A stretch of DNA of 62,737 bases from positions 1 through 62,737 of the forward strand of contig JASLKQ010000006.1 in assembly GCA_030747505.1 (NCBI GenBank), read 5' to 3'. This DNA is from Verrucomicrobiota bacterium. Its GTDB lineage: Bacteria > Verrucomicrobiota > Verrucomicrobiia > Limisphaerales > UBA1100. Made by a program: the position numbers and the translations under genes. Below are positions 61,227-62,737 of this stretch, piece by piece. A model generated the notes under the pieces. It was not told where the DNA came from and searched no databases. It saw only the letters and a program-made list of their open reading frames with translations. Numbering within the stretch: position 1 is the first letter of the stretch; every line of letters starts with the position of its first letter.

Positions 61227-62264
61227 ATGAAACGCCGTAATTTCATTTTCAGCACAGCTGCCGCGCTGGCCGCCACGCCCCTCTATGCCAGAGCCAATCG
61301 CCCACGAATCCGCATTGGCCAAATCGGACTGGCACATCCCCATTCGCTGGGGAAATTAAACGCGATCCGTTCTTTGCCCGACACTTATGATCTCGTTGGC
61401 GTGGTGGAACCTGATTTGTCGCTTCGCAAGCGAGCCAAGGGGCTAAATTTCATCTCTCTGAATCAGCTTATGAACACAAAAGGCCTTGAAGCTGTGGCGA
61501 TAGAAACCCGGGTAAAAGACCTGGTTACAACCGCACTTCCAGTAGTGGAAGCAGGTAAGCACATCCATCTGGATAAACCAGCCGGACCGGCACTGGCACC
61601 CTTTCAAAAACTGCTCGACCTGGCAGAACGGCAAAGGCTGACCGTTCAAATGGGCTATATGCTGCGCTATAACCCCGCCTTTACCTTCATGTTCAAAGCG
61701 GTGCGGGAAGGTTGGTTTGGGGAGATCATGGAGATTGACGCAATGATGGGCAAAAAAGCCGGGGACGGGATGCGCAAAGAGTTGGCTGAATTTAGAGGGG
61801 GCGGATTCTTTGAACTGGCCTGCCATATTTTGGATGCTGCAATCCATATTCTGGGCAAACCTCAAGCCGTCCATGGATTCAATCTACGTACCCGAAAAAA
61901 ATCCGGAGACACTTTTGCTGACAATCAGTTGGCAGTTCTAAAATTTGCGAAGGCGACTGCCTGCCTGCGCTGCAATCACAATGATCCCTTCGGATTTCCC
62001 CGTCGGCGGTTCAACATCGCCGGCTCCCGGGGGGGAATGGAGATTCAGCAACTTGAGTCAGGCCGGTTTGTGCTGAATCTTGATCAAGCTCGCGGTGAGT
62101 TCAAGAAGGGCTCCCAAACCGTACAACTGAAGGGAGGACGCAGCTATAGCGCTGAATTCACTGACCTAGCCAGGGCCATTCGGGGAGAAAAGCAACTCGC
62201 TTGGAGCTATCAACACGATCTTGCCGTACACGAAACCCTGCTGAAGATCTGCGGCATGGGATAA
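61227..62264 (+). CDS. Gfo/Idh/MocA-family oxidoreductase with Tat-like signal
   Basis: MKRRNFIFSTAAALAATPLYARA; IGQIGLAHPHSLGKLNAI, KHIHLDKPAGPALAPFQKLLDLAERQRLTVQMGYMLRYNPAF. Confidence 0.92.
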   Translation: MKRRNFIFSTAAALAATPLYARANRPRIRIGQIGLAHPHSLGKLNAIRSLPDTYDLVGVVEPDLSLRKRAKGLNFISLNQLMNTKGLEAVAIETRVKDLVTTALPVVEAGKHIHLDKPAGPALAPFQKLLDLAERQRLTVQMGYMLRYNPAFTFMFKAVREGWFGEIMEIDAMMGKKAGDGMRKELAEFRGGGFFELACHILDAAIHILGKPQAVHGFNLRTRKKSGDTFADNQLAVLKFAKATACLRCNHNDPFGFPRRRFNIAGSRGGMEIQQLESGRFVLNLDQARGEFKKGSQTVQLKGGRSYSAEFTDLARAIRGEKQLAWSYQHDLAVHETLLKICGMG

Positions 62265-62266
62265 GA

Positions 62267-62300
62267 TGGAGCGGGTGATGGGAATCGAACCCACGTCTCG
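62267..62300 (-). tRNA. 3'-terminal tRNA fragment (tRNA-Gly-like), probable integrase attachment site
   Basis: Minus strand reads CGAGAC-GTGGG-TTCGATT-CCCAT-CACCCGC-T-CCA: complete T-arm, acceptor 3' strand, discriminator and CCA; no matching 5' half (GCGGGTG) within the next ~80 nt. Confidence 0.8.
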
Positions 62301-62390
62301 TTTCCGCCCTGGTGACCCCCTTGTTTTCTGGGGAAAAACACCTAACAACACACCATTGACGCCAGTGACGTTAGCACTTTTGTTAGCACT

Positions 62391-62737
62391 ATGGCGAGTA
62401 TCCACAGGCGTTCCAGTTCACCATATTTTCAGGCAGCATTCCGCGATGGGCAGGGACGACAAATCCAGCGCAGCACCAAGGAGAAAGACCGTTCCAAGGC
62501 GTTGACGATCGCACTGGAATTGGAACGGGTAGCAAAGAATCCTGATGAACTAGTCGAAGCGCAAGCCCGTAAAGTTGTCTCGGACCTGATGGAACGTGTT
62601 GGTAATGAACCAATCCGTACCCCCTCGACTGAGGCTTTTCTCCGGGAGTGGATACGCGGCAAGGAACTCAACCGCTCTGAGGGGACAGCAACCCGCTACC
62701 GCAGCGTGGTGGAGCGTTTCTTGAAAGGGTTGGGCAG
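62391..62737 (+). CDS. Tyrosine recombinase/phage-type integrase (N-terminal part, runs off right edge)
   Basis: Translation MASIHRRSSSPYFQAAFRDGQGRQIQRSTKEKDRSKALTIALELERVAKN...AFLREWIRGKELNRSEGTATRYRSVVERFLKGLG: arm-binding and SAM-like core-binding style; adjacent to tRNA fragment. Confidence 0.85.
   Translation, partial: MASIHRRSSSPYFQAAFRDGQGRQIQRSTKEKDRSKALTIALELERVAKNPDELVEAQARKVVSDLMERVGNEPIRTPSTEAFLREWIRGKELNRSEGTATRYRSVVERFLKGLG

Follow-up and report, generated by a model that had tools for sequence, protein, structure and literature searches.

An orphan tRNA-Gly 3' end beside a tyrosine integrase gene marks the left boundary of a small mobile element in a Verrucomicrobiota genome, with an attachment-site geometry apparently shared by relatives

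Mobile DNA often inserts into tRNA genes. Does the junction at the end of the contig studied here, where the 3' end of a tRNA gene lies next to the start of an integrase gene, mark such an insertion, and where in the tRNA gene would strand exchange have taken place? The window, that is, the whole stretch of 62,737 bp that was analyzed, is the entire contig C220 of a Verrucomicrobiota genome (G000; 253 contigs, about 91% complete), and the element junction sits within its final 471 bp. Because the window is one entire contig of a fragmented genome, the catalytic part of the integrase, the cargo and the far end are missing. The contig ends in the left boundary of a small mobile element, of an ordinary kind and inserted in a tRNA-Gly gene. 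More interesting than the boundary itself is the attachment-site geometry that it appears to share with its relatives; this geometry is supported by comparison, and the relatives point with unusual clarity to a rule by which a single integrase family could exploit many different tRNA genes.

The tRNA-Gly(CCC) 3' fragment that would form the attL core (62267..62299, minus strand; TGGAGCGGGTGATGGGAATCGAACCCACGTCTC) is the last 33 nt of the tRNA including CCA, and comprises variable loop, T-arm and acceptor 3' strand. These 33 nt (34 in one genome) are identical to the intact tRNA-Gly(CCC) of five relatives (G002, G007, G012, G016 and G017), with the sequences divergent beyond; as this identity stops at the variable loop, the idea of an anticodon-loop crossover was abandoned. 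No intact tRNA was found by ARAGORN anywhere in the window, and the fragment is thus an orphan 3' end, as proposed in a preliminary description of this DNA. Scanned against Rfam, 62150-62450 showed no match to a tRNA at the fragment; the only matches were a weak one to the tmRNA T-arm (E=0.11) and one to a frameshift element of no relevance here. The 3' ends of the intact glycine tRNAs found in the genome itself (anticodon TCC, on C187; anticodon GCC, on C88) differ from the fragment.

At a distance of 92 bp from the fragment end (about 90 bp had been claimed), an ATG at 62391 begins a rightward frame that is open to the contig end (62391..62737, plus strand) and encodes the first 115 aa of a tyrosine integrase. 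Its identification as a tyrosine recombinase, also made in the preliminary description, is upheld by 76-77% identity over these N-terminal 115 aa to full-length L075 and L076, its nearest relatives (376 aa each). L076 matches Phage_integrase (PF00589, E=7e-21) and has the catalytic positions (R, K, HxxR, H, Y), which are kept in nearly all full-length members of an alignment of 15 integrases. Alone, the 115-aa ORF gave no significant match against Pfam and a weak integrase match against PHROG (E=0.0035). The best solved relative by sequence is lambda Int, which is also the top fold match, obtained from a low-confidence model and with top fold matches at ~19-20% identity. The N-terminus in the window is modeled with a mean pLDDT of 70 (residues 1-18 mostly <50), and that of L076 as strand-strand-strand-helix (pLDDT about 79-87), the C-terminal half of the L076 model being poor. 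Relatives in phages and plasmids are all below 60% identity, the best being an Akkermansia phage (28%), while neither L076 nor the window integrase found a relative in scans of IMG/VR. No match to a sigma-70 promoter was found upstream of the gene.

Integrase homologs were present in 22 of the 98 genomes in a search of relatives (own genome counted), and in 53 of the 287 genomes in a search of the class. In most of them, the opposite strand carries a tRNA 3' end ~114 bp ahead of the integrase ATG, the kind of tRNA varying. The recurrence of this layout beside most homologs, together with the 33 exact bases of the fragment, shows that the association of fragment and integrase is not chance. Ten of the homologous elements are complete (5.1-15.9 kb), their far ends each holding an intact tRNA that lies on the same strand and has the identical 3' part, and their targets are seven kinds of tRNA: Gly(CCC) (5.1 kb), Phe (5.9, 6.3 and 9.5 kb), Arg (9.2 kb), Gln (10.4 and 15.7 kb), Val (12.2 kb), Cys (14.4 kb) and Leu (15.9 kb). 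An intact far-end tRNA had been predicted for the window element as well; this arrangement holds in the ten homologous elements, but in the element's own assembly, about 91% complete, the contig ends and no intact tRNA-Gly ending in the fragment's 3' sequence was found.

The cargo of the relatives is variable, and includes excisionase-like HTH proteins, primase/helicase and DnaB-like proteins, and genes for type I restriction-modification and candidate defense, with single proteins matching a tape measure protein, a head protease family and a TrwC relaxase. Small size, together with the excisionase-like HTH, primase/helicase and DnaB-like genes and defense-type cargo of several relatives, likens these elements to phage satellites and small integrative mobilizable elements, from which they differ in that a packaging or conjugation set is not established in the relatives. 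At L076, two elements apparently lie in tandem at a tRNA-Gly core, and the right part of the apparent tandem element (L076:1-2040) encodes a PLD/SNF2-domain protein and an excisionase-like HTH protein. Intervals of 4.4-4.7 kb at L248:764-5544 and L249:345-4828 run from a tRNA-Gly 3' fragment to an intact tRNA-Gly(CCC), and are without a homolog of the window integrase. At L117:5884-5920, an element right end contains paired repeats and a tRNA-Gly core, and the sequence after it is not tRNA; this is possibly a secondary-site insertion.

The junction is probably, with a likelihood of roughly three in four, the attL of an integrative element with a lambda-type tyrosine integrase, inserted in the 3' part of tRNA-Gly(CCC) with the crossover beside the T-loop. 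The rule describing its att site was derived from the first 24 loci (window counted) and then tested on 32 further loci. The putative core half-site C (GGAATCGAA; 62281..62289, plus strand) covers the T-loop and two T-stem bases, and is matched at 8-9 of 9 positions in 21/24 and 26/32 homologous loci, at a median of about 114 bp ahead of the integrase ATG. Next to it lies the putative 7-bp overlap CCCACGT (62290..62296, plus strand), which consists of the T-stem 5' strand and two variable-loop bases and is where strand exchange would occur, followed by the putative element-borne core half-site C' (CTCGTTTCC; 62297..62305, plus strand), a 7/9 match to the inverted T-loop. Core symmetry peaks at exactly 7-bp spacing in both locus sets, with means of 7.1/9 in the first and 5.2/9 over 26 new loci, against at most 4.6 (first set) and about 4.1 (second) for the other spacings tested, most of which score 1-3. 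The inverted T-loop copy is present in closer relatives, and many of the more distant members have a weak C' or none; a score of at least 7/9 is reached by only 7 of the 26 new loci. A compensatory half-site change, with GGAATTGAA paired with TTCAATTCC, is seen in L087 and L207; in a permutation test, compensatory change gave p=0.31 in the first set and p=0.015 in the second, being significant in the second only. As read from the sequences, the attL/attR direct repeat stops at the end of the 7-bp overlap in eight of the ten complete elements, and is 2 and 5 bp longer in the remaining two.

Just ahead of the integrase gene, the window contains a paired direct repeat, GTTAGCAC-tttt-GTTAGCAC (62370..62389, plus strand), whose units are putative arm-type integrase sites. 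This pattern was found nowhere else in its own genome, the single occurrence being that in the window. Paired repeats identical at 8/8 positions with a period of 11-12 occur at the same place in 14/24 and 17/32 loci, and in 0 control regions. In most of the ten complete elements, element-specific 8-bp repeats recur next to the tRNA at the far end; in L095, TAGTAAG is repeated at both element ends, and in L246 a far-end repeat matching the near-integrase repeat was not seen (p=0.83). The paired repeats and T-loop sites fit the arm-type and core-type sites of a lambda-like integrase. Core sites and separate paired repeats near both ends are likewise features of lambda-type heterobivalent integrases, from which the present family differs in its tRNA targets and in its paired 8-mers of period 11-12, whose binding by the integrase we infer.

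In the proposed mechanism, the integrase would bind the tRNA T-loop on one side and the element's inverted T-loop copy on the other, exchanging strands in the 7 bp between them, with its N-terminal domain tethered to the paired arm repeats at both ends. The element would bring the missing 3' end of the tRNA, so that an intact tRNA would be restored at the far end. Since nearly all tRNAs share the T-loop, the integrase family could switch tRNA mainly via the 7-bp overlap and the carried 3' end.

The position of the crossover is where a rival account departs from this one, holding that the element is real, that exchange takes place inside the T-loop as proposed for mycobacteriophage Ms6, and that the inverted copy carried by the element is incidental. 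The T-loop is the site to which class II integrases are assigned, and the study of the Ms6 integrase, which states their crossover point as unknown, suggests exchange within it (PMC1762012). Like the present family, the Ms6 enzyme uses the 3' portion of a tRNA gene, T-loop included. By contrast, the Ms6-type class II identity block contains the T-loop and excludes the variable region (PMC1762012), a pattern not found in the complete relatives here, in which attL/attR identity goes on for 7 bp past the T-loop and, in the eight elements already mentioned, ends there. The same 7-bp segment is the symmetry centre in both locus sets, which also argues against a crossover inside the T-loop, and we consider such a crossover unlikely.

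Two further accounts concern the host flank, a Gfo/Idh/MocA oxidoreductase gene identified through Pfam (61227..62264, plus strand) that ends 2 bp before the fragment. Its orthologs in the same-genus genomes G001, G002 and G004 are directly followed by a gene for what we take to be a DUF1592-type protein, with no tRNA, and the flank is thus not the tRNA-Gly(CCC) locus of the relatives, in which the tRNA has a PfkB-type kinase gene as its neighbor. In this respect the preliminary description of the contig end as a mobile-element boundary fits less well, while the adjoining tRNA-Gly 3' fragment and tyrosine integrase on which it was built stand. A search of the genome itself for an ortholog of the DUF1592-type gene found only paralogs at 30-46% identity. 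The odd host flank may stem from a rearrangement, from decay or from a misjoin at the repeated core.

Two other contigs were considered and set aside. C214, a candidate for the tRNA-Gly(CCC) locus, has the relatives' kinase, but next to it a different integrase and no tRNA; this second tyrosine integrase (L011:640-2058, 399 aa), after the PfkB-type kinase and beside a T-arm-like GGGAATCGAACCC, occupies the tRNA-Gly(CCC) position of the relatives. The second core copy on C243, a candidate for the intact far-end tRNA of the window element, is actually an element right end fused to a tRNA-Gly-type core by a mannitol dehydrogenase gene (L013:11687-11768). At the equivalent place, G005 has a T-loop-like half-site without a recognizable element end, and G003 has a T-loop-like site with an apparent element end. 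The mannitol dehydrogenase site may be a non-tRNA target.

If the junction were a relic, decay or partial deletion of the element would have left the tRNA fragment and an integrase beside an unrelated host gene. This would suit the tRNA 3' end lying so close to the stop codon of a gene that has no tRNA neighbor in relatives, the failure to find tRNA-Gly(CCC) in the assembly, and the presence of GGGATAA both just before the junction and left of the tRNA-Gly core of G015, with a deletion at this short repeat being speculative. However, the integrase frame is open for 115 codons, and its start codon, the paired repeats and the core are all at the positions usual for the family, and a relic seems improbable. 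Least probable is an assembly artifact in which the contig jumps at the 33-nt repeat between tRNA-Gly contexts: the core is indeed repeated in the genome (on C243), the contig stops 471 bp past the junction and the adjoining host gene is without a tRNA in relatives, but the integrase side and core follow the standard layout of the family, and a misjoin would alter the host flank only and not the attL structure.

Among known systems, the element is close to the Islander-type tRNA-gene islands (PMC4383910), with which it shares a tyrosine integrase and a displaced 3' fragment and, as seen in the ten relatives, a restored tRNA at the opposite end in the same orientation. The crossover sub-sites described for such islands are the anticodon loop, the T loop and the T/acceptor stem junction (PMC4383910), whereas the crossover here would fall at the T-stem 5' strand and variable loop. 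It is an evenly balanced question whether the relatives together form a widespread Verrucomicrobia integrase clade that uses the T-loop as a fixed core half-site, crosses over in the adjacent 7 bp and pairs with an inverted T-loop copy on the element, with retargeting achieved through a new overlap and a new carried tRNA 3' end only. If so, these integrases would use a tRNA sub-site absent from the three usual ones, the novelty of the T-stem/variable-loop sub-site being provisional. With many natural elements, at least seven kinds of tRNA and one geometry, the clade would make the recognition rule directly testable, and it might yield integrases that are easily aimed at a chosen tRNA gene.
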